Of a DNA stretch of 64,000 nt, positions 36,945 to 48,467 are shown one piece after another. The notes beneath the pieces were generated by a model. That model did not search any database and had not been told where the DNA came from. It saw nothing but the letters and a program-made list of their open reading frames with translations. The stretch is taken from positions 1 to 64,000 of the forward strand of contig NZ_CAKZNK010000100.1 of assembly GCF_937129525.1 (NCBI RefSeq), read 5' to 3'. The DNA comes from an uncultured Chloroflexus sp. Lineage in GTDB: Bacteria > Chloroflexota > Chloroflexia > Chloroflexales > Chloroflexaceae. The number at the start of each line of letters is the position of its first letter. Within the stretch, counting starts at the first letter, position 1. Both the position numbers and the translations under genes were made by a program.

Positions 36945-38486
36945 TTATCCTTCAGGTTGCACTGCTGTCAGTTTGCGGCGCACAAAGGGTATCTTTTCCA
37001 GCACTTTAACCAGCGCTTCCTTCACCAGTGCCATATCATTGTTGGGCAGCGCGCGCAATACCAGCGCCAGACCAATGTACACAACAGCGCCTAATGGCAC
37101 GGCCAGGAAGAAAAATGGTGATGTCCGTAGCCACCAGATCGATCCTGCCATACCCAATCCGGCCAGGCCGGACAGCAAACCGGTGCGCCAGTTTTGAGCG
37201 CCAAATGTGCCCTTGGGTAAGGCCTTGATAGCCGCGATCAGAATGCCTAGCTCGGTAATCGTGTATGCCAGCGCCCCACCCAGCGCGCCGTTGCCAAAGG
37301 CGCGATCAGTCCACGGTACCAGGAAAAAGTCGAGTGGTAGCGTTGCGACCGTCGCCACAATCATAATCGTGTTGAGGATGGCAGTGCGCTCGGCGGCAAT
37401 CAGCAACTGGCTGAGCACCGTATTCAGGTAGGTACAGATCAGCACCAATCCCAGCACGGCGAGAACAGCGCCGGTTGGGCGAAAGGCATCGCCGTACAGA
37501 AGGAGCGTGATCGGTTCGGCTAGCGCCAGCAACCCCAGCCCAATCGGCATGCTGAGCACAACCATAATGTTGAAGATTGGCCGGGCCGCCTGTGAGAGGT
37601 AATCTTGCCCGGCAGCAAAGCGGCGCGTGAATGTCGGAAAGATGACAGTGCCAATCGCTACCGGGAAGAACATCAAGGTGCCAAACAGGTTTACGGCAGT
37701 GCCATACCAGCCCACAGCTTCGGTTGAGGCGAAGAGGGCGATAAACAACCGGTCGATTTGCTGATAAACCATCAGCGTTAATGCCGTCACCAGATACTGC
37801 TTTGAGTCAAGCAGCATACTTCGTGCCGCTGCCAGATCGAAACTCCAGCGCGGTCGATGCTGGCGGAAAAGGAAAAAAGCATCGCCTAAGAGTGCCACCA
37901 GGGCAGCCAGCACATTTGCCCAACCGATCCAGATGACATCGAATCCGGCGAAGAGCAGGCTCAGGCTCAACACTGTCAGCGCCAGCTTGCTGACAACCGT
38001 AACCAGCGAGACATAATGTACCTGTTCTAGCCCATTCAGCGCCGCAATTAAGCCGCCGCTAAGTGTTGCAAAGAGGGTCATCAGCCCGATAATCCAGATC
38101 AGGGCAATTTGCGTTGGATCGGCACTGCCGGCCAGGAGGTCGTAGCCAAAGACGACCAGGCAACTAATCACCCACAAGCCGATCCGAACAATGAGGCTGG
38201 TGCCGACCAATACACCGGTGCGGTGCGGTTCACGAGCAATCGCCTTGGTCAGGTGTGTGTCCATACCGAACGTGATCAACACGCCGGCAATCATCCAGAT
38301 CGACAACGCAATGGACAGTTGACCAATCGCGAGCGGCCCCAGGATGCGTGGCTGAAAGATGGCAACCAGAAAAGCCATTGCCCATGTGAGCAACTGAGCT
38401 GCCATCATCGCGCTTGCATTTCGGGCCAGCCGCGCCCCGCTAATGGGTGGCGGCGTTATGGGGTTGGGCGCTCCTTGGGCGCTCAC
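36945..38486 (-). CDS. Wzx-like polysaccharide flippase
   Basis: The 513-residue protein has 12-14 membrane segments and the polysaccharide-export layout of the MOP superfamily (for example ARNASAMMAAQLLTWAMAFL near the start and SKQYLVTALTLMVYQQIDRLFI in the middle). It should flip undecaprenyl-linked repeat units across the membrane. The start is a GTG at 38486 with AGAGGAG seven bases upstream; it overlaps the stop of the GT2 gene by four bases (GTGA). It is the last gene of the nine-gene operon starting at 46313. Confidence 0.85.
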   Translation of the reverse strand: MSAQGAPNPITPPPISGARLARNASAMMAAQLLTWAMAFLVAIFQPRILGPLAIGQLSIALSIWMIAGVLITFGMDTHLTKAIAREPHRTGVLVGTSLIVRIGLWVISCLVVFGYDLLAGSADPTQIALIWIIGLMTLFATLSGGLIAALNGLEQVHYVSLVTVVSKLALTVLSLSLLFAGFDVIWIGWANVLAALVALLGDAFFLFRQHRPRWSFDLAAARSMLLDSKQYLVTALTLMVYQQIDRLFIALFASTEAVGWYGTAVNLFGTLMFFPVAIGTVIFPTFTRRFAAGQDYLSQAARPIFNIMVVLSMPIGLGLLALAEPITLLLYGDAFRPTGAVLAVLGLVLICTYLNTVLSQLLIAAERTAILNTIMIVATVATLPLDFFLVPWTDRAFGNGALGGALAYTITELGILIAAIKALPKGTFGAQNWRTGLLSGLAGLGMAGSIWWLRTSPFFFLAVPLGAVVYIGLALVLRALPNNDMALVKEALVKVLEKIPFVRRKLTAVQPEG

Positions 38487-39460
38487 GGCGCTACTCCTCT
38501 CTGTGATGGGTCGGTCAGGCGAAATGGCGCAATATAACAACACAATTCGCGGTTAAGTTGATAACTCCAGCCTTTTTGCAAACCTACAAAGGGGTAATAC
38601 AGTTGATCTAATCCCAGCAATATCTTATCTAGGCGATGCCACTTGATCACACCCGAAGCAATCTGGCGCAATCCCTGGCTAAATAACCATTCACCCAACA
38701 ATACCAGGCCACCGAGGTCACCGCAGCGCAGGTATTTACCGGCAACCGCGCCGGCGCCAATGCCGTAAGCGCGAAAGCTGCGGCGAACGCCTTGCCAGTT
38801 CTGCCAGTGGTGATGATAGGCAATAGCCTGTGGGGTAAAGGCGATCCAGCCACCGCTTTTCAAGACCCGATAGCCTAGATCTCGCTCTTCCCACGATCCT
38901 AATGGCGCGCCAGCGCCAATCAGTTCATCAAATCCTCCCATCTGTTCGAAAGCGTTGCGCCGCGCGCCCATGTTATGGCCGTGACCGAAGGCAAGATTAA
39001 ACCGATTGTGGCGAAAAATACGACGCGAGCCATTGCACGTGCCCAAAACCAATTCATTGACCTTCATCTCTTGTGGCCCCGGGTATACTGCCCCGAAGGC
39101 CAGCCAGACCCGCTCGTCGCGCAATTCCGCGACTAACCCGCCGATCCAGCCAGGATCGAGCACACAGTCATCGTTGGTGAACAGAATGTAGGGCGCATGG
39201 CCCAGAGCAGCGCCGGCGTTGCGTGTGGCCGATATACCGCGTATCGGTTGCCGCAGATAACAGATCCGTTCGTCTTCTAACGCATGGTGACGAACACACT
39301 GTTCAGTGCGATCGTCTTCACTTTGGTCAAGCACCCAGATCGTAAAGTGAGGATACGTGTTCTGGCGGAGACTGCGAATCGTAGCGTCGATAGCAGCGCC
39401 GCGTCCATATGTTGAAATCACAACATCGACTGCCGACATATCCATACAGTTGCTGCCCAT
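38483..39460 (-). CDS. Family 2 glycosyltransferase
   Basis: The 325-residue protein has the GT-A signature DVVISTYGRGAAIDATIRSL, ISATRNAGAALG and the metal-binding pair in ILFTNDDCVLDPGWIGGL. A later ED motif is in SWEERDLGYRV. It should add a sugar to the growing lipid-linked unit at the cytoplasmic face. There are three possible ATG starts (39460, 39445, 39439) and none has a strong ribosome-binding site. It lies 89 bases after the receiver gene and is coupled to the flippase gene. Confidence 0.86.
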   Translation of the reverse strand: MGSNCMDMSAVDVVISTYGRGAAIDATIRSLRQNTYPHFTIWVLDQSEDDRTEQCVRHHALEDERICYLRQPIRGISATRNAGAALGHAPYILFTNDDCVLDPGWIGGLVAELRDERVWLAFGAVYPGPQEMKVNELVLGTCNGSRRIFRHNRFNLAFGHGHNMGARRNAFEQMGGFDELIGAGAPLGSWEERDLGYRVLKSGGWIAFTPQAIAYHHHWQNWQGVRRSFRAYGIGAGAVAGKYLRCGDLGGLVLLGEWLFSQGLRQIASGVIKWHRLDKILLGLDQLYYPFVGLQKGWSYQLNRELCCYIAPFRLTDPSQRGVAP

Positions 39461-39549
39461 TTTGTCTGAATAACCAGCTTATGTCAGCAGCGTATCATCC
39501 TTTGTTGAAACTATGCTGAAATACGCATAGATTTCATCTAACGAGACAG

Positions 39550-39945
39550 TCACCTGGCAGCGAATTTTTGGTTGGGCGCGCGGCGCCGCAAGAGCCGATC
39601 AACTTCACAAATCAGATCGTCTGAGTCAACCGGCTTGGTCAGAAAAGCGTTGACGCCAACGCCGGCTGCTTTGACCTCGTCTTGCTCTTTGACACTGCCG
39701 GTTACCATAATGATTGGCAAGTCGGCATAGCGTTCATGCTCGCGAATTGCGCGAGCCAGTTCAATCCCGTCCATCCGCGGCATCGTAAGATCGGTGACAA
39801 CAAGAGCGACTTCCGCAGAGTTGAGTCGGCGCAACGCCTGCTCGCCATCAATGGCAGTAACCACTTTATAGCCGTGTTGTTCGAGCACGAACCCCATCAA
39901 CCGGTTGCTCGGTATATAGTCATCGACGATCATGATCGTGGTCAT
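39550..39945 (-). CDS. Single-domain CheY-like receiver
   Basis: The 131-residue protein has a complete receiver: acidic pair D8/D9 (MIVDDYIPSN), phosphoacceptor D52 (VVTDLTMPRMDG), T82 (IIMVTG) and K104 (FLTKPVD). There is no output domain and no histidine kinase nearby. It begins 14 bases after the RsbW-type kinase gene, inside the polysaccharide operon, so it may link an external sensor to the partner-switching circuit. Confidence 0.88.
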   Translation of the reverse strand: MTTIMIVDDYIPSNRLMGFVLEQHGYKVVTAIDGEQALRRLNSAEVALVVTDLTMPRMDGIELARAIREHERYADLPIIMVTGSVKEQDEVKAAGVGVNAFLTKPVDSDDLICEVDRLLRRRAPNQKFAAR

Positions 39946-39959
39946 GTTCAGAGTCTCCT

Positions 39960-40391
39960 TTAGCTTAAATGCTTGACCAGGTGCCAGCGATTTCCATCAG
40001 GAAGCGATGTATAGCTGACTTTATCCATCAAGTGGCGAATGAGAAACAAACCATAGCCGTGGATTTGGGCCTCGCTAAGGTTGGGTTGCGGCACCAGTTC
40101 TGGATCGAACGTCTCTCCCGTATCGTGCAATTCGATCTCGATGCGGGGTGGTTGTGGGTAGAGCGTTAAGGTGATATGAATGCGTCCTTCGCCATCGCGC
40201 CGATTCCGATAAGCGTGACTGACGATATTTGTGCAGACTTCATGCGCAGCCAACTGCACATTGTATATCAACGTTTCATTGTCTGCTCCTACCTGCCGAA
40301 GTAATTCGGCAATAGTTTCACTCAGCAGGTGCAGATAGGAATGGCGGGCCGGTAGATCCAGCCGGATCACTTCGCTGGGTTGCCTGCTCAC
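39960..40391 (-). CDS. RsbW/SpoIIAB-type serine kinase (anti-sigma-factor-like)
   Basis: The 143-residue HATPase-fold protein has the N box (AAHEVCTNIVSHAY, with E51 and N55), the G1 box (LHDTGETFDP, D90 and G92) and a G2 box (HGYGLFLIRHLMD). These are the features of kinases that phosphorylate a serine of a STAS partner. No sigma factor is encoded nearby, so its output partner is unknown. Its ATG overlaps the stop of the phosphatase gene by four bases. In the family these proteins act in the cytoplasm. Confidence 0.9.
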   Translation of the reverse strand: MSRQPSEVIRLDLPARHSYLHLLSETIAELLRQVGADNETLIYNVQLAAHEVCTNIVSHAYRNRRDGEGRIHITLTLYPQPPRIEIELHDTGETFDPELVPQPNLSEAQIHGYGLFLIRHLMDKVSYTSLPDGNRWHLVKHLS

Positions 40392-41929
40392 GGCTCTACT
40401 CCTTTGAGCACGATAAGCGTTTGATCATCATCTTGCGGATGGCCCGCGCTGAATCGATCCACTGCATCAAACAAACCATCGGCAATTTCGCGCGCTGAAA
40501 GCTTGGACAGTTCATCGACCGCGTTCAATAATCGTTCGATGCCAAATAATTCATCTTGTTCGTTACGGGCATCGCTGAAACCGTCGGTGGCAACGATCAA
40601 GAGATCACCTGCTGCCATCGCGAGCGAACGATTTTGAAAGTGATTGGTTGGCAGGATACCGATAGCCGTGTTATCGGCCAGCAATAATTCAGCTCGACCG
40701 TTGCGCGGTCGGTAAATGACCGGCGCGTGACCCGCATTGGCATATGTGATAGTCTGTTGCTCGACCTCGTATTGACCGACAAAGACAGTTGCAAAGACGC
40801 CGATCCGGGTAAAATCGTTGTAGAGATCTTCATTGGATTGGCGCATCACCAGTGCCGGTGTCGGCGATGGCATAAACTGCGCTTTGCTGTGCAAGGCAGT
40901 GCGTGTCATCGACATTAACAGCGCCGCCGAAACGCCTTTCCCACTCACGTCACCGATGGTAAAGATGAATGGATGGTTGGGCAGGTTGATGAAATCGAAA
41001 AAGTCGCCGCCAACCTGTAATGCCGGACGCGAATAGGCGAAGATCTCTAAACCGGTCACCTCTGGCAGGACGCGGGGAAGCAGATCGGTTTGCACTCGTC
41101 GAGCGAGATCCATTTCGCTGCGTAGACGCGCCTGTTCTACCATCTCCTGGTAGAGTAAGATCCGCTCGATCTGTGCGCTGGCCTGATCGGCGAGCGCTCG
41201 CCCAAGTTTCAGCTCAGGAGTGCCGAAACCTTCTGCCCGATCCATGATCCCGATACTGGCTACTACCATCCCCCGCACCCGGACTGGAACCACCAACAGG
41301 TTATGCACGCCGGGTGGCCGGCGCAGATCGCCATCATTTTCACTGAGTAAGAGCGGACGATCTTCTGTTTGTAGTTGCCAGAATAGTCGCCAGATCGTCT
41401 CGACGTTGAGCCTCGATTCTTCCGATTGCACAACGATCGGATCGCCACCGTTTGTTGACACGTAGGTTGCAAAGCCGGCTCGCCCTCTCAACATACGCTG
41501 CGCTTCATGGACAACAGCCGTCAACGTTTCACGCACTGTTACCAGATCGCGCATCGCCTGCGTTAATCGGTAGAGCGCGAGTTGTTGATCCTGACTGGCA
41601 ACCAGATCGGCGGTCATGCATTGCAACTCGTATTCGAGCTGCAACATGTAACCGATAAGCTCAGCTTCGGCTTTCAGATGTTGTTGCGCTGCTTTGTGCC
41701 GAATGCCGCTTAGACGAAGTTCGCCGACGACTTCGTTGTAACAGTAGATGGCTGCGCTGAGATCGGCTGGCAACAGTCGCTGTCCAGCCGGCCAGTAGGC
41801 AAGCGCCCGTCCCTGTTCAAAAACTCCAAATGCCTGCGCGCCTTGCGCCAGCCATGCTTCGGCTAATGCCTGAATGCGGTTGTATTGTGAGCTGAGCAAC
41901 GAAACAAGCATCATTGTGGTCTCAGGCAT
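40388..41929 (-). CDS. GAF-domain SpoIIE/RsbU-type PP2C phosphatase
   Basis: The 513-residue protein has a GAF-like sensor region (about residues 115-260) and a PP2C-type SpoIIE domain (about 285-510). All metal-binding motifs are seen: VGGDFFDF, TIGDVSGKGVSAALLM, IVATDGFSDARNEQDELFG and DDQTLIVL. It should remove phosphate from a STAS serine and is therefore expected to be active. No membrane segment is seen. It overlaps the upstream STAS gene by eight bases and the kinase gene by four, so kinase, phosphatase and substrate are made together. Confidence 0.9.
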   Translation of the reverse strand: MPETTMMLVSLLSSQYNRIQALAEAWLAQGAQAFGVFEQGRALAYWPAGQRLLPADLSAAIYCYNEVVGELRLSGIRHKAAQQHLKAEAELIGYMLQLEYELQCMTADLVASQDQQLALYRLTQAMRDLVTVRETLTAVVHEAQRMLRGRAGFATYVSTNGGDPIVVQSEESRLNVETIWRLFWQLQTEDRPLLLSENDGDLRRPPGVHNLLVVPVRVRGMVVASIGIMDRAEGFGTPELKLGRALADQASAQIERILLYQEMVEQARLRSEMDLARRVQTDLLPRVLPEVTGLEIFAYSRPALQVGGDFFDFINLPNHPFIFTIGDVSGKGVSAALLMSMTRTALHSKAQFMPSPTPALVMRQSNEDLYNDFTRIGVFATVFVGQYEVEQQTITYANAGHAPVIYRPRNGRAELLLADNTAIGILPTNHFQNRSLAMAAGDLLIVATDGFSDARNEQDELFGIERLLNAVDELSKLSAREIADGLFDAVDRFSAGHPQDDDQTLIVLKGVEP

Positions 41930-42260
41930 TCAAAACAGCAAGCGCATGCTCGCTATCAACAAAGATGTTGAACGCTTTATCGAGTCGGGTCAGTTCGAAA
42001 ATCATTAACACTGGTCGGCGCAAACCGCAGAGCGCAAATTCACCTTTCCCTTGCTGGCAGCGTTTCATCGCCGATACCAGCGTCGCCAACGCGGTTGAGT
42101 CGACGAAGGTGGTTTCGGTCAGATCGACTAAAACACGCGCGCCAGGGGTGGCAGTTGCCTGTTCAAGCCAGTGCTGGACGGGAGGCGCGGTATTCGCGTC
42201 GAACCGACCTTCAATCGCCAGCACTGCCACATTGCCGACTGTTCGCGGCTTGATTTCCAT
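41922..42260 (-). CDS. STAS-domain anti-sigma-factor antagonist-like protein
   Basis: The 112-residue protein is a single STAS domain. The phosphorylation motif reads TFVDSTALATLV with D54 and S55, as in RsbV/SpoIIAA. It should be the substrate of the kinase and phosphatase encoded directly downstream. GGAGG lies nine bases before the ATG, in a 62-bp gap after the pseudo-nucleotidyltransferase gene, so it can be translated independently within the operon. Confidence 0.9.
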   Translation of the reverse strand: MEIKPRTVGNVAVLAIEGRFDANTAPPVQHWLEQATATPGARVLVDLTETTFVDSTALATLVSAMKRCQQGKGEFALCGLRRPVLMIFELTRLDKAFNIFVDSEHALAVLNA

Positions 42261-42322
42261 AGGTATAATCCTCCTTTAACCCAGGCACCTGGTGATACTG
42301 CCCCGATCACACCTCGTTATCT

Positions 42323-44020
42323 TTACCTGGGTGGCGCAAGGTCGGCTTTTACGGCTACGCCGATCTCAGATGTCACTTTCGTTGCCTTCATCCGATGCCA
42401 CCAGGCCCGCGGTGTGCGCAACAGTATCTTCAGGTCATCTTGCCATGTATGCGTTGCACTATAGTATACATCGGCAACCACAATAGAATCGAGATCACCG
42501 GCGGCCTGTACGTACCATAAACCGGTTATGCCGGGTGGAACTTCATAGCGACGTTGCTGCCACGCTTCGTGCAACAGTTCGACTTCGTTGGGCGAGAGTG
42601 GTTTAATACCGACCAGGTGTAGATCGCCGTTGATGACATTCAAAAGTTCTGGTAACCGGTGAAATTCGCAGGCTTCGAGCCATGCCCCAAACCAGAGCGG
42701 GCGTCCATCGGCATGACGGGTGCGCCAGCGCCAGAGATTCAATGGGCGGAATGTGGTCTGCCCGTTGGCCAGCGTCACGCGCTCGCCAACGCGCGGTAGC
42801 CGAACGAGTGGCCGACCGCCGCTGCCGATCGCGGCCAGCAGTCCGGTGAACAAAAAGAGTGGGCTGAGCGCAATGAGGATGAGCAGGGCGCCGATCCGAT
42901 TCAAAACGCTGGTCAGCCGGTTTGTATTCACCGTTGCTGCCGAGACTCGTCCGATCAGGAACGGATCGACAATTGCGGTTTGTTCACCACTCTCTGGATC
43001 GATGATCATGCCTGGGTAAACAATACGCCGATCAACATTGACCAGTTGACCGATGTAGGTATCTGCCCAGACGGTGCTGGCTGTTACGGTAGCTTCGTCA
43101 TCGATCATGCAGTCGGCGCCGATTACCGTGCCCGGACCAAGCTCAACATCGCGCCCGATCCAGCAGTTGTCGCCAATGTAGAGGGGTGGCGCAATGCGCG
43201 CGCTGGGATGGATGGAGTCATTGCGTCCTACCCATACTCCGGGTGCGATCTGGCGACCCCGGATTGAAGGGTATCGCACGGTGGCACGCGGGCCATCGGT
43301 GACTGTCGGGTCGGCAGTCCGGTAGGCACTGTACAAAAAGACCTGCTGCGCTTCGTGGTAGCTGGCCAGTGTTGTCAAAGGATTCCAGTAGCCGCTAAAG
43401 GTAAAGTTGTGTATCGGTATGTGTTGTTCCAATAAGTGCGGTAACAGATCGGTGACAATCTGGCATCGCTTGCGCAGCGGAATTTGTGCGATCAAGCTCG
43501 GTTCAATGAGGTAGGCTCCGGTGAGAGTGACAACATTGCCATCGCTCTTAGCCGGCAACACGGCGCGCAGGGTTCCATCTTCAGCAATAGCAGCCTCCGG
43601 GTGGGCGTACTCGCGCGCCGGGTGAGTAATGACCGTGAGTGGCCCGCCATGAGCCTGATGGTGTGCCAGCGCCGTTTCAATTGGCAGGTCGATAATCGCG
43701 TTGCCCGGCCATACCAGACAGGTTTCATTTATCAGTGGCCCGGCCCAACGCAAGGCGCCGCCATCACCCCAGGCTTCTTGTAACGTGACATATTCAATAT
43801 CAACACCCCATCGCTTGCCACTGCCGAAGGCTGCCGTAATGGGGGCGCTCTGTTCGTGTAGCGCGATCAGAATGCGCTTGATACCGGCCCTGGCCAGCAG
43901 TTCGACCGCAACTGCCATGACCGGTCGATCAATGATCGGCAACAAGACATCCGGCAAGACATCGGTCAATGGCGGCAAATGACGCTCTTCAGCAGTCGCA
44001 ATCAGCAACGCAATGGTCAT
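42323..44020 (-). CDS. Fusion of degenerate nucleotidyltransferase, hexapeptide repeat and degenerate sugar transferase
   Basis: The 565-residue protein has three parts. Residues 1-230 resemble an NDP-sugar pyrophosphorylase (PIIDRPVMAVAVELL) but the GGxGTRL loop reads TAEERHL and the signature Lys is missing. Residues about 250-355 look like a left-handed beta-helix (ARIAPPLYIGDNCWIGRDVE). Residues about 365-540 resemble a bacterial sugar transferase with one membrane segment (LLILIALSPLFLFTGLL) and LPELLNVINGDLHLVGIKPL, but the catalytic Asp-Glu pair is His454-Arg455. It is probably not catalytic in either outer domain. Its ATG overlaps the stop of the STAS-fused glycosyltransferase gene. 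Confidence 0.82.
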   Translation of the reverse strand: MTIALLIATAEERHLPPLTDVLPDVLLPIIDRPVMAVAVELLARAGIKRILIALHEQSAPITAAFGSGKRWGVDIEYVTLQEAWGDGGALRWAGPLINETCLVWPGNAIIDLPIETALAHHQAHGGPLTVITHPAREYAHPEAAIAEDGTLRAVLPAKSDGNVVTLTGAYLIEPSLIAQIPLRKRCQIVTDLLPHLLEQHIPIHNFTFSGYWNPLTTLASYHEAQQVFLYSAYRTADPTVTDGPRATVRYPSIRGRQIAPGVWVGRNDSIHPSARIAPPLYIGDNCWIGRDVELGPGTVIGADCMIDDEATVTASTVWADTYIGQLVNVDRRIVYPGMIIDPESGEQTAIVDPFLIGRVSAATVNTNRLTSVLNRIGALLILIALSPLFLFTGLLAAIGSGGRPLVRLPRVGERVTLANGQTTFRPLNLWRWRTRHADGRPLWFGAWLEACEFHRLPELLNVINGDLHLVGIKPLSPNEVELLHEAWQQRRYEVPPGITGLWYVQAAGDLDSIVVADVYYSATHTWQDDLKILLRTPRAWWHRMKATKVTSEIGVAVKADLAPPR

Positions 44021-45561
44021 CGAGTTAAGCCCCCTTCAGTTGCAATCGGAGCTGGCTTTGTTGGCGTAGCAGTCGCCACCGATACATCGGGAAAGATCGC
44101 CAATACCTGGTCGAGGCGTACCAGTTGGAGGGTGCGCAAGACATCGTGTGCGCAACCGGCCAGACGTAGCGCGCTCCCCTGCTCACGGGCCAACCGGTCG
44201 AGTTTTACCAGTGCAGCCATTCCGGCGCTGGCCATAAATGTTGTCTGGCTACAATCGATGACGACCTGTTCACCTCTGGCGAGCGCAGCGCCAGTCTGCT
44301 CTAGCAGTGCTGGCGCTGTAGTGGCGTCGAACACTCGCGGCGCCGGGATGATCGTCCAGCCGGAAAGTGTTGGCGCGGGTTGGATTGGCGCTGGTTGTTG
44401 TTGACGTTCCATCCATTCGGCAATTGCCGCTAGATCGGAAAATTGCTCAAAAAAGCGATTGAGTTTGAGCAAATCAAGGATCTGCCGCACAGGCTCTTGC
44501 ACATTGAGCAAGAAGAGGTCGCCTCCCTTTGTGCGGGCGCGTTTGGCCAGTGCGACTAATGCGCCCAGGGCCGAGCTATCGAGAAACCGGGTTGCGCTTA
44601 GATCAAGGATCAAAAAAGGGTGTGCTTCCAACAATTGATTGGCTCGAACGGTGAATGGTTCCAGGTTAGCGACTTCGAGCCGTGGCTCAACGGTCAGCAC
44701 AGGCCATGGCAATGATGCTGCGGGAGGTTCCGGCACAGCGGGAGCTTCCGGCGCAGCCGATGGTGCGGCAGGAGCAGTGGGAATAATGGTGAGCGCTCTT
44801 CCCCGCTGCATTGCCCACCATTGTCGGGCAAAGAAGTACCCGAAGTAGATGAAATCGTGAACGTACCGTTTCCACAATCGGCGCGGCTCTTGCGCTAACC
44901 GGTATACCCATTCCAGGCCGACTCGCTGCATCCACACCGGCGCCCGTTTGGTAACTCCCACGATCATATCAAATGTGCCACCGACCCCAATCGCAATCGG
45001 CACGCGCAATTCATGCGCGTACATTCTGATCCACTTCTCTTGTTTGGGGTTGCCAAACGCCACCAGCAGAATGTCTGGCCGGGCTGCTTTGACGGTTTCA
45101 ACGATTGAGCGATCCATATCCAGCACCGATCCGGGTGGCGGCGACAACACGCCGGCCACGCGCAAACCGGGATAACGTTCTTGCAGAATAGCCGCAGCTT
45201 TGGCGGCGACACCTTCGCGCGCGCCCAGGAAGAAAATTGAATACCCTCGTTGGGCAGCGCGCTCGGCCAGCGCCGGTACCATGTCGGCGCCGGTTACCCG
45301 GCCAGGCAGTGGTCCGCCGAGCAGGCGTGAGGCCCAGACGAGCGGCATGCCGTCGGCTGTCGCCATATCGGCTTCTTGCAGGATGCGTCGCAGTTCGGGA
45401 TCATGCAGCGCATTGACAACGAAATCGGCATTAACAGTGGCAATCTGATGTAGACGACCGGTAGCTCGCCCCACTGCAATAAACTCGTCGCAGCGATCAA
45501 GCGCTTCGGCCATCGTCAGGTTGTCAACCGGCACACCGAGAATGACAAGCAGTTTGCGCAT
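44017..45561 (-). CDS. WecG/TagA/CpsF (GT26) glycosyltransferase fused to two STAS domains
   Basis: Residues 1-245 form a GT26 enzyme: ATVNADFVVNALHDPEL, ATADGMPLVWASRLLG, GRVTGADMVPAL, VAFGNPKQEKWI and GVGGTFDMIVGVTKRAP. It should add a second sugar to a lipid-linked primer. After a Pro/Ala-rich linker, residues about 288-388 form a STAS domain with RFLDSSALGALV (D328, S329), and residues about 402-495 a second one with TFMASAGMAALV (Ala in place of the Asp, S445). The family normally ends near residue 245-260. STAS domains are the substrates of RsbW-type kinases, and one such kinase is encoded four genes downstream. Confidence 0.88.
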   Translation of the reverse strand: MRKLLVILGVPVDNLTMAEALDRCDEFIAVGRATGRLHQIATVNADFVVNALHDPELRRILQEADMATADGMPLVWASRLLGGPLPGRVTGADMVPALAERAAQRGYSIFFLGAREGVAAKAAAILQERYPGLRVAGVLSPPPGSVLDMDRSIVETVKAARPDILLVAFGNPKQEKWIRMYAHELRVPIAIGVGGTFDMIVGVTKRAPVWMQRVGLEWVYRLAQEPRRLWKRYVHDFIYFGYFFARQWWAMQRGRALTIIPTAPAAPSAAPEAPAVPEPPAASLPWPVLTVEPRLEVANLEPFTVRANQLLEAHPFLILDLSATRFLDSSALGALVALAKRARTKGGDLFLLNVQEPVRQILDLLKLNRFFEQFSDLAAIAEWMERQQQPAPIQPAPTLSGWTIIPAPRVFDATTAPALLEQTGAALARGEQVVIDCSQTTFMASAGMAALVKLDRLAREQGSALRLAGCAHDVLRTLQLVRLDQVLAIFPDVSVATATPTKPAPIATEGGLTR

Positions 45562-45572
45562 GGTTGCTACCC

Positions 45573-46313
45573 TTAATATGCCCCACGCCCCAACAACACC
45601 GCCGGAATCGTGCGCAACAGGATTTCGATGTCTTTCCAGATGCTCTGCTCGGCGATATATTGCAAATCAAGTTCGACCCAGCGCTTGAAGTCGAGATCGC
45701 TTCGCCCTGAGACCTGCTGTAATCCGGTAATCCCTGGAATTGCGTGCAGGCGACCCAGTTGCTCGTAGGTATAGCGGGCTACCTCACTCGGCAGGGCCGG
45801 ACGGGGCCCAACCAGGCTCATCTCACCTTTCAATACGTTAAAGAGTTGGGGCAATTCGTCAATGCTCAGCTTGCGAATCACGCGGCCTACTCGCGTCACT
45901 CTTGGATCGTGCTTCATTTTAAAGACAGGACCGTCAGCTTCGTTTTTGGTCTGCAATTCGCGCTGTCGCTGTTCCGCATCAACGTACATCGAACGAAACT
46001 TGTAGCAATAGAAATGTTCACCGTCTTTGCCGACGCGCACTTGCTTGAAAATCACCGGTCCCGGCGACTCAAGCTTGATGAGAATTGCCGTGATCAGCAT
46101 AATCGGCGAAGTCAGCACAATCGCCATTGAGGCGACGGTAACATCTAATACCCGCTTGAGACGAGCGAGCAACTTGGTGCGGATAACCCATAGTGAGAGG
46201 GTGAATCGCAGGCGCTGGTTTGCGCGGGTGCGCTGAAAGCGGCGCTCGGCAAAAATTTCCAGCATGCGTCGGCTCTTTTCGTCAAGTGGTGATAATTCTG
46301 GTGCGCTCATCAT
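45573..46313 (-). CDS. Bacterial sugar transferase (priming phosphoglycosyltransferase)
   Basis: The 246-residue protein has one membrane (reentrant) segment (DVTVASMAIVLTSPIMLITA), then YKFRSMYVDAEQR and the catalytic Asp152-Glu153 in LSIDELPQLFNVLKGEMSLVGPRP. It should move a sugar-1-phosphate to undecaprenyl phosphate, starting repeat-unit synthesis. AGGAGG lies seven bases before the first of two ATGs, at 46313. It is the first gene of the operon and is followed by the GT26-STAS gene after 11 bases. Confidence 0.92.
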   Translation of the reverse strand: MMSAPELSPLDEKSRRMLEIFAERRFQRTRANQRLRFTLSLWVIRTKLLARLKRVLDVTVASMAIVLTSPIMLITAILIKLESPGPVIFKQVRVGKDGEHFYCYKFRSMYVDAEQRQRELQTKNEADGPVFKMKHDPRVTRVGRVIRKLSIDELPQLFNVLKGEMSLVGPRPALPSEVARYTYEQLGRLHAIPGITGLQQVSGRSDLDFKRWVELDLQYIAEQSIWKDIEILLRTIPAVLLGRGAY

Positions 46314-46877
46314 CCTGGTACCTCCTAAAACTCTCTGCGCTTTACTATATACCAGTAAGCGAACAAAAACCTTACAGGTGATTGCTTGCCGGTTAAGAAT
46401 ATGTCACGCCATACGCGCTGACTGTAACAGGCTGAGGCACCGGTTGTCCGGCAGTGGCTACCCGTTTCAGTGTAGAGCAATTGAGAATAAAGCCGGCTAT
46501 CGTTATTTCCAGACTCCATCTATTGCACGCCCTTACGTGTCCCTTTGTCCAGAGCTTTCTCAAGCTGGCGTTCTGTTATGAAATCGACCTGCTTCTTCTG
46601 TCTCTGTATTTGCGGCCAGTGTGGCAACCCTCTCAGGCGCTTGCCTCGATCTCAGTACGTGCAAACTGTCATCCTGACGACCGAAATAATTAAACGAAAG
46701 GTTATTTTGGCGATCCTTAGCTACGTCTGTTTGTTGCATCAGCAAGCTGTTTCCGCTCGAAGAGGTTGGCGCTGAAGTATAACCATTGATTTGTCAGATA
46801 TGTCGCACATCATGTATCGTGCGTGAGACTATCTCGGAGTGTTCAGATTGGCATATACAGTTTGCAGAGGTTTTTTT
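46314..46877. other. 564-bp divergent intergenic region
   Basis: It separates the polysaccharide operon (−) from the glycosidase lipoprotein (+) and must hold promoters for both. On the minus strand a TATAGT sits at about 46352-46347 near the priming-transferase gene, with no clear -35. Open frames at 46454-46775 lack ribosome-binding sites and are not protein-like. No RNA gene or long repeat was seen. Confidence 0.45.
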
Positions 46878-48467
46878 ATGATTTTTTTGAAACGAGTTTT
46901 CGCTCTATCAATGGCACTGCTTCTGGCTGCCTGTAATACACCGACTACTGTGCCAGCTCCTACGGTGATACCAACCGTTCAGCCTGTTGTAACCACCGTG
47001 GCGACTGCGCCTGGACTTCCACCACATGATGCGAATCGCCCAACCATCGTGATCAATCCAGCGCAGGCCCGTCCTTTCAGCCGGTACCTGCTCGGCACGA
47101 ATGTGCCAGCATGGTTGAACCCCTATCGCCTGAGCGATGAGACGTTTATCAATCGCACCGCCGAGGCAGGTGTAACCTTGCTACGAATGCCCGGCGGTAG
47201 CTGGAGTAATTCGTATGCCTGGGCCGATTGCGAAACTGGTGGCGATGGTTGTTATTGGCCATGGGCTGCCAAACCATCTGATTTCCTGCGTTTTGCCCGC
47301 GCAGTCAATGCCGAGATTATCTGGACAGTCTCAATCAACGGTTCAGCCCAGGAAGCAGCAGCGCTGGTTGCCTTCTTTAACGGATCGATTGATGACACCC
47401 GCATCATCGGCGTTGATGCTCGCGGGCGCGACTGGCAGACGGTTGGCTATTGGGCGCGGCTGCGCGCCGATCTGGTTAGTCCGGATCCGTTTCCGGTGCG
47501 CTATTGGGAGATTGGTAATGAGGTGTACGGCGCAAAGCGCGATGTCGGCCCGAATTGTTCAGAGTGGGGTTGGGAAGATGTCTGGACGTGCGATGCCGAT
47601 GAATATCTGCGCGGCGCTACCGTCAATGGCATTGCCTATGATGGCTATCTTGCCTTTTACGATGCGATGAAGGCGGTTGATCCAACGATCCAGATTGGCG
47701 CCGTTGGGATCGAAAAGCCTGATGAGTGGACAGATTGGGGGCATCGCGTTATTGCCGGCGCCGGCGAGAAGCTCGATTTTTATGTTGTTCACTACTATCC
47801 GTTTTTTCAACCGCCAGAAAACCCTGCCGGCGCATTGCTACAACCGCAGCGGAGCTGGGCCACGATTATGTCTGATCTGCGGGCCGCGTTCGAACAACAT
47901 GTGGGCCGACAAGTGCCGGTGGCGGTCACTGAATACAACCTGGTCTCGTTTCAAGATCTCGATAATGGCCAGTTGATGCGGCGAGCAGTTAATCTGCTCT
48001 TCATCGCCGATTCGATTGGCCAGATGGCCACTCATGGTGTTGCCATCGCCAATCAATGGGATCTGGCAAATGGACGCGCAGCCAATGGCACCGATTACGG
48101 TTTGCTTGACGCCGATACCTTTGACCCCAACCCATCGTACTACGCTCTGATGCTCTGGAGTCGCTTCGGTGATGAGCTGCTGGAGGTGCAGTCACCGTTC
48201 GATCCCGCGCAAACGTTGAGTCTGTATGCAGGCCGTCGGTCTGACGGCACATTGACACTGCTGGCAATTAACAAGACCGCACAACCACTTGAGGCTACAT
48301 TCGGCTTGCCGGAAGGTTCATGGCAGGTATCGGCAACCATCATCAGCGCGGATGATCTGCTGGCTGAAACGGTTTCGCTGGTTCAGACAGAGTCGCCGGT
48401 GCCACTTGAACAACCCTTCACGTTTACTCCTTTCGCTATCACATTACTGACCTTCACCAGCTCATGA
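46878..48467 (+). CDS. Clan GH-A glycoside hydrolase lipoprotein, arabinofuranosidase-like
   Basis: The 529-residue protein starts at the ATG at 46878 (AGAGG seven bases upstream) with a lipoprotein signal (FALSMALLLAACN). A Thr/Pro/Val-rich linker leads to a (beta/alpha)8 catalytic domain: LLRMPGGSWSNSYAW, the acid/base region YWEIGNEVYG and the nucleophile region VAVTEYNLVSF, followed by a C-terminal beta domain. The pattern is that of GH51/GH39/GH79-like enzymes, so an arabinofuranosidase or similar exo-glycosidase is likely; the substrate is inferred. Its place facing the polysaccharide operon suggests trimming or release of the polymer. Confidence 0.8.
   Translation: MIFLKRVFALSMALLLAACNTPTTVPAPTVIPTVQPVVTTVATAPGLPPHDANRPTIVINPAQARPFSRYLLGTNVPAWLNPYRLSDETFINRTAEAGVTLLRMPGGSWSNSYAWADCETGGDGCYWPWAAKPSDFLRFARAVNAEIIWTVSINGSAQEAAALVAFFNGSIDDTRIIGVDARGRDWQTVGYWARLRADLVSPDPFPVRYWEIGNEVYGAKRDVGPNCSEWGWEDVWTCDADEYLRGATVNGIAYDGYLAFYDAMKAVDPTIQIGAVGIEKPDEWTDWGHRVIAGAGEKLDFYVVHYYPFFQPPENPAGALLQPQRSWATIMSDLRAAFEQHVGRQVPVAVTEYNLVSFQDLDNGQLMRRAVNLLFIADSIGQMATHGVAIANQWDLANGRAANGTDYGLLDADTFDPNPSYYALMLWSRFGDELLEVQSPFDPAQTLSLYAGRRSDGTLTLLAINKTAQPLEATFGLPEGSWQVSATIISADDLLAETVSLVQTESPVPLEQPFTFTPFAITLLTFTSS

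Follow-up and report, generated by a model that had tools for sequence, protein, structure and literature searches.

A conserved partner-switching cassette in a Chloroflexus polysaccharide operon, with a STAS-bearing glycosyltransferase as candidate target

Partner switches of the same general make-up as the one described here have been linked to polysaccharides in two bacteria. In Vibrio fischeri, SypA/SypE comprises a STAS protein and a serine kinase/phosphatase with a receiver, and belongs to a polysaccharide (syp) locus (PMC8256260, PMC10120452), while HmpU/HmpV/HmpW of Nostoc punctiforme consists of a phosphatase, a STAS protein, and an RsbW-like kinase acting on a motility-linked polysaccharide (PMC8256260). 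The targets of SypA and HmpV are unknown. In addition, SiaABCD of Pseudomonas aeruginosa joins a kinase/phosphatase pair to the partner protein SiaC, which according to structure-based work acts directly on the diguanylate cyclase SiaD (PMC8457831). Here, we describe a 64,000-nucleotide window of a contig from an uncultured Chloroflexus sp., in which nine minus-strand genes (positions 36945-46313) combine polysaccharide synthesis with the parts of a partner switch, and in which the candidate target, a GT26 glycosyltransferase, bears the switch's own docking domains. A previous reading of the sequence alone had listed such genes and claimed a complete partner-switching set inside a polysaccharide operon; a Pfam domain search located all of them (Table 1), and this result, together with the gene order in relatives, bears the claim out. 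Cautiously, we lean towards the view that this Chloroflexota cassette uses partner switching to control polysaccharide assembly without a sigma factor, and that the switch acts directly on the glycosyltransferase machinery. If true, an assembly line, instead of gene expression, can be under the control of a partner switch.

A search of 158 Chloroflexia genomes for the GT26-STAS-STAS protein was followed by inspection of the gene neighbourhoods. Overall, with the Anaerolineae loci included, the protein is kept in about 36 genomes. The cassette has the order priming transferase, GT26-STAS-STAS, fusion protein, free STAS, GAF-SpoIIE, RsbW, and CheY. Six Chloroflexus genomes whose loci are complete, among them the source genome, show this seven-gene order, as do many further genera of Chloroflexaceae and a genome from another family of Chloroflexia (G070). 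It also occurs in another class, Anaerolineae, at loci L156-L161 and L163, of which L156 has no CheY match. Judged from the neighbourhoods, the recurrence is far beyond chance. In contrast to these seven genes, GT2 and Wzx stand directly behind CheY only within Chloroflexus (GT2 at loci L039-L043 and L135) and are, by this distribution, Chloroflexus-level additions to a conserved unit of seven rather than parts of the nine-gene unit first proposed. Scanning the tandem STAS region against 84,980 species genomes gave matches in Chloroflexus, Oscillochloris, Chloroploca, Viridilinea, and Anaerolineae metagenome-assembled genomes; absence elsewhere is no proof, since no more than two short peptide patterns underlie these matches. 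The cassette is real and conserved and has no earlier description in the literature searched, where no GT26-STAS system of Chloroflexota was found. A contig labelled Candidatus Gracilibacteria (L152) also bears a Chloroflexaceae-type cassette, and its bin label looks wrong.

In STAS domains, we take the serine following Asp to be the phosphoacceptor because of the precedent of SpoIIAA Ser58 and RsbV Ser56. The free STAS protein, whose structural relatives are SpoIIAA (1th8) and RsbV (6m36), shows the D-S motif in 41 of 42 homologues, the remaining one having D-T. The kinase, with B. subtilis RsbW (6m36) as its nearest solved relative, has N-box Glu51 and Asn55 in 49/49 homologues, and the metal-binding Asp309, 327, 449, and 501 of the SpoIIE phosphatase are essentially invariant in about 48. 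The receiver keeps Asp52 in 41/42 and Lys104 in 37/42 homologues. The set, therefore, displays the canonical SpoIIE/RsbW/STAS features, namely a GHKL kinase N-box, the PP2C metal Asp set, and a STAS acceptor after Asp.

The glycosyltransferase is likewise well preserved in its catalytic part, as the GT26 domain (Pfam E 2e-65) has a TagA fold and conserved Asn44, Asp70, and PKQ motif. In its first STAS domain (STAS1), Asp328 and Ser329 are present in all 34 orthologues, although conservation reaches 95% or more in only 12 of the 101 STAS1 columns. In the second (STAS2), Ser445 is kept in 33/34, but the preceding Asp in 0/34, with Ala, Ser, or Thr instead. Since STAS2 has no Asp before its Ser, only STAS1 is a predicted canonical phosphoacceptor, and the former statement that all residues are intact holds for the kinase, phosphatase, receiver, free STAS, and STAS1, but fails for STAS2. 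An AlphaFold model of the protein has a mean predicted local distance difference test score of 71 and a predicted template modelling score of 0.42, making the domain placement unreliable. Its fold matches are TagA (7mpk, 38% identity) for the glycosyltransferase and RsbV from the RsbV/RsbW complex (6m36) for the STAS domains, where RsbV of this complex is among the best STAS matches (root-mean-square deviation 1.2-1.4).

The third cassette gene encodes a three-part fusion, which the sequence-only inventory left undescribed. Its kin are sugar nucleotidyltransferases (8x7s) and PglC/WbaP-type priming transferases (8e37, 8g1n). Aligned to the latter two, the priming-transferase Asp-Glu dyad reads His454-Arg455 (codons 42656-42661), with Arg replacing Glu in 32 of the 34 orthologues, unlike in an active priming transferase. 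The GG.GTR loop of the nucleotidyltransferase is lost as well, with Ala8-Thr9 in 33/33 orthologues, and the PKP Lys of an active sugar nucleotidyltransferase is absent from all. The separate priming transferase of the operon has catalytic Asp152-Glu153 and KFR intact (D/E and K/F/R each in 32/32 orthologues). With both sets of catalytic residues lost, the fusion is probably dead as an enzyme on both counts. Because both active sites are degenerate, yet the protein is conserved over two classes, it may be regarded as a conserved double pseudoenzyme, serving as a probable membrane scaffold or as a regulator. The cassette thereby brings to light a conserved pseudoenzyme that is likely to act as a scaffold.

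Kinase and glycosyltransferase are tightly linked. All 28 Chloroflexia genomes with the GT26-STAS-STAS enzyme hold a close homologue of the cassette RsbW, located within 10 kb of the enzyme in 20 of the 23 genomes testable by their contigs, and likewise in 7/7 testable Anaerolineae loci. In two Candidatus Viridilinea genomes, STAS-SpoIIE-CheY lies elsewhere in the genome, and the single close RsbW is still directly behind the priming transferase, the GT26-STAS-STAS enzyme, and the fusion in both. As co-occurrence is complete one way and switch-only genomes exist, the enzyme seems to depend on the switch, while the switch can in some genomes do without the enzyme.

One such switch-only genome is Chloroflexus G012, where the switch occupies the syntenic place near MutS2, CvpA, and a major facilitator superfamily gene. 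At this locus (G012:C27, L104:9804-11325), STAS-SpoIIE-RsbW-CheY is kept, polysaccharide genes are absent, and an unrelated GT4-like gene adjoins. The G012 SpoIIE gene is frameshifted; since the shift falls inside a run of eight C, an assembly error is possible, and the frameshift was not retained as evidence that the phosphatase decays once its target is gone. In 11 related modules that lack the enzyme (L115, L116, L121, L122, L123, and L129-L134), the kinase gene is followed by a second free STAS, which was found in none of the GT26-STAS-STAS cassettes; it has the motif F-x-D-S-A-G and sits just before CheY in most of these modules. Capture of the GT26 STAS domains from this second STAS was considered but rejected: the distributions are complementary, but a 105-column tree gives no resolution on this point.

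If the switch controls the glycosyltransferase directly, the kinase would bind and phosphorylate both STAS1 (at Ser329) and the free STAS (at Ser55), and the two would compete for it. In response to its GAF input, and perhaps also to the receiver, the SpoIIE phosphatase would dephosphorylate the free STAS, which would then capture the kinase and thereby release GT26. STAS2, having no Asp, would more likely offer a docking or dimerisation surface, and the dead fusion, with its priming-transferase-like membrane segment, would likely be a scaffold joining the priming and second-sugar steps. Several results speak for direct control, namely the seven-gene order kept in both classes, the linkage of kinase and enzyme, the Viridilinea kinase left beside the enzyme, the invariant Asp-Ser of STAS1, the RsbV fold match, the lack of SigB/F/G factors, and the absence of the second free STAS from the GT26-STAS-STAS cassettes. 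The more specific proposal, in which phosphorylatable fused STAS domains gate a glycosyltransferase post-translationally and sigma-free on a membrane pseudo-priming-transferase scaffold over two classes, is put forward tentatively, as a good possibility. Since the candidate target has docking domains and is conserved with the switch, direct enzymatic control could be tested with a few purified proteins.

Several observations weigh against direct control of the glycosyltransferase. The three genomes in which kinase and enzyme lie apart are all Chloroploca, where the enzyme is encoded away from the other cassette genes. The module is intact without the enzyme in G024, G026, and G027, which belong to the same family and are 99-100% complete, and the switch also occurs without it in deeper relatives, there with a second STAS behind the kinase. 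As it survives in these genomes and in G012, the module would have, or be able to acquire, another output, and GT26 is unlikely to be its sole possible one. Moreover, STAS2 is without Asp in every orthologue and in one also without Ser, the tree gives no descent of the GT26 STAS domains from the second STAS of the related modules, and the conserved linkage fits plain co-expression too. The previous inference that serine phosphorylation acts directly on a glycosyltransferase complex is plausible and is strengthened by the linkage, the STAS1 residues, and the lack of SigB/F/G factors, but falls short of established; it is further qualified by STAS2 and by the improbability of GT26 as sole output.

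The kinase could instead sequester an extracytoplasmic function (ECF) sigma factor or RpoD paralogue encoded elsewhere, in which case the polysaccharide operon would be merely a regulon or neighbour, and the GT26 STAS domains would detect free kinase or serve some unrelated purpose. There are candidates, as the source genome has 13 Sigma70_r2 proteins. Individual typing of six of the 13 assigned four long ones as RpoD/SigA-like and two as ECF. Other sigma classes have also been reported under partner switching, including the primary sigma factor of Chlamydia trachomatis (as cited in PMC8256260), RpoS of Pseudomonas aeruginosa (reported in PMC6482189), and SigC in a cyanobacterial cascade (reported in PMC12329169), and a module that survives without the enzyme would suit such a client. 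However, none of 91 class genomes, the source genome among them, has a SigB/F/G protein over the TIGR02980 cut-off (1/14 control genomes exceeded it), and no sigma gene lies in the cassettes inspected. The classical SigB/F/G-type client of the canonical switch is absent from the class genomes sampled; at the level of this family, the dedicated sigma factor elsewhere that was to overturn the sequence-only inference did not turn up. Sequestration of a sigma factor would also leave unexplained why an enzyme of the same operon bears two docking domains of the kinase type in which the Ser is conserved, and we consider it unlikely.

It could also be speculated that the free STAS is the output, as for SypA, with its unphosphorylated form binding and activating the polysaccharide machinery (e.g., GT26 or the dead fusion), and with the STAS domains of GT26 as its docking partners. 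SypA/SypE and HmpV/HmpW run in that direction, their targets being unknown (PMC8256260, PMC10120452), the partner protein SiaC is an example of direct activation of an enzyme, in this case SiaD (PMC8457831), and the missing Asp of STAS2 suits docking over phosphorylation. Yet Viridilinea keeps the kinase, not the STAS, beside the enzyme and the fusion, and an output through the free STAS seems quite unlikely. Finally, a structural role of the GT26 STAS domains in oligomerisation or membrane patterning, with the switch co-transcribed since both are needed simultaneously, would agree with the STAS domains of SLC26/SulP transporters, for which a membrane-targeting role is suggested (PMC8256260), and with the separated Chloroploca enzyme, but is very improbable given the invariant acceptor Ser-Asp of STAS1 and the presence of the kinase in every Chloroflexia genome with the enzyme.

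From priming transferase to Wzx, the intergenic spacing of the operon is 11, -4, 62, -8, -4, 14, 89, and -4 bp. As it ranges only from -8 to 89 bp, a single transcription unit of nine genes is plausible. For Wzx, a GTG at 38486, after GAGAGGAGT, is the more likely start, resulting in a 4-bp overlap with GT2. Upstream of the operon, a divergent plus-strand gene (46839-48467) encodes a lipoprotein-like protein of 542 residues without any Pfam match; its sequence suggests a secreted glycoside hydrolase.

Table 1 Features of the polysaccharide operon and predicted phosphoacceptor sites (window positions).
Feature	Position	Strand	Evidence or detail
Priming phosphoglycosyltransferase (Bac_transf)	45573-46313	-	Pfam E 3e-69
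GT26 (WecG/TagA/CpsF) with two C-terminal STAS domains via Pro/Ala linker	44017-45561	-	Pfam
GT26 STAS1, residues about 284-385	44407-44712	-	Predicted acceptor Ser329, codon 44575-44577
GT26 STAS2, residues about 396-498	44068-44376	-	Ser445 kept, Asp position Ala/Ser/Thr
NTP_transferase / LbH (left-handed beta-helix) / Bac_transf three-part fusion	42323-44020	-	Pfam
Free single-domain STAS (antagonist)	41922-42260	-	Pfam
Free STAS phosphoacceptor Ser55 (predicted)	codon 42096-42098	-	
GAF-SpoIIE PP2C-type phosphatase	40388-41929	-	Pfam E 1.5e-43
RsbW/SpoIIAB-type serine kinase (HATPase_c_2)	39960-40391	-	Pfam
Stand-alone CheY-type receiver (Response_reg)	39550-39945	-	Pfam
GT2 glycosyltransferase	38483-39460	-	Pfam
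Wzx-type flippase (Polysacc_synt)	36945-38543 as open reading frame; 36945-38486 with revised start	-	Pfam

Related gene groups occur outside the cassette. In the source genome, G000:C143 (L065:8778-12352) carries a STAS gene, an RsbW-type kinase, a carboxytransferase-like gene, and a STAS-free GT26 on one strand, with rpsL adjacent; the STAS, kinase, and GT26 recur at the matching G012 locus (L068). This GT26 was not counted as a second polysaccharide switch because it adjoins the carboxytransferase and rpsL. Two more SpoIIE / RsbW-type / STAS clusters are present in the source genome (L070 and L071; G000:C112 and C131). In Nocardioides (L165:6616-9207), an open frame of 864 residues ends in a STAS domain and is followed by an RsbW-like kinase, with part of a SpoIIE match overlapping the start of the frame.

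Compared with known systems, the cassette resembles RsbV/RsbW/RsbU and SpoIIAA/SpoIIAB/SpoIIE of Bacillus in its three protein families and in their intact catalytic and acceptor residues, but the 91 Chloroflexia genomes sampled have no SigB/SigF-type client, and the cassette adds a glycosyltransferase-fused STAS and a separate CheY. As with SypE/SypA, the switch set lies inside a polysaccharide locus. However, SypE unites kinase and phosphatase on one protein, whereas kinase, phosphatase, and receiver are separate genes here and are accompanied by a STAS-bearing candidate target. The Hmp system, compared by its description in PMC8256260, differs in that no glycosyltransferase-STAS fusion is mentioned there. 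In SiaABCD, the target is a cyclase whose stalk is bound by SiaC, while the candidate here is a glycosyltransferase with fused STAS. A glycosyltransferase with STAS, all4160 of Anabaena, was reported in a study of genes for envelope polysaccharide (Wang 2007, cited in PMC8256260); according to the description in the citing paper, its STAS is N-terminal, whereas those of GT26 are C-terminal. Lastly, the catalytic domain of the cassette GT26 is common to the TagA/TarA/WecG enzymes, of which the solved TagA (7mpk) has no STAS.

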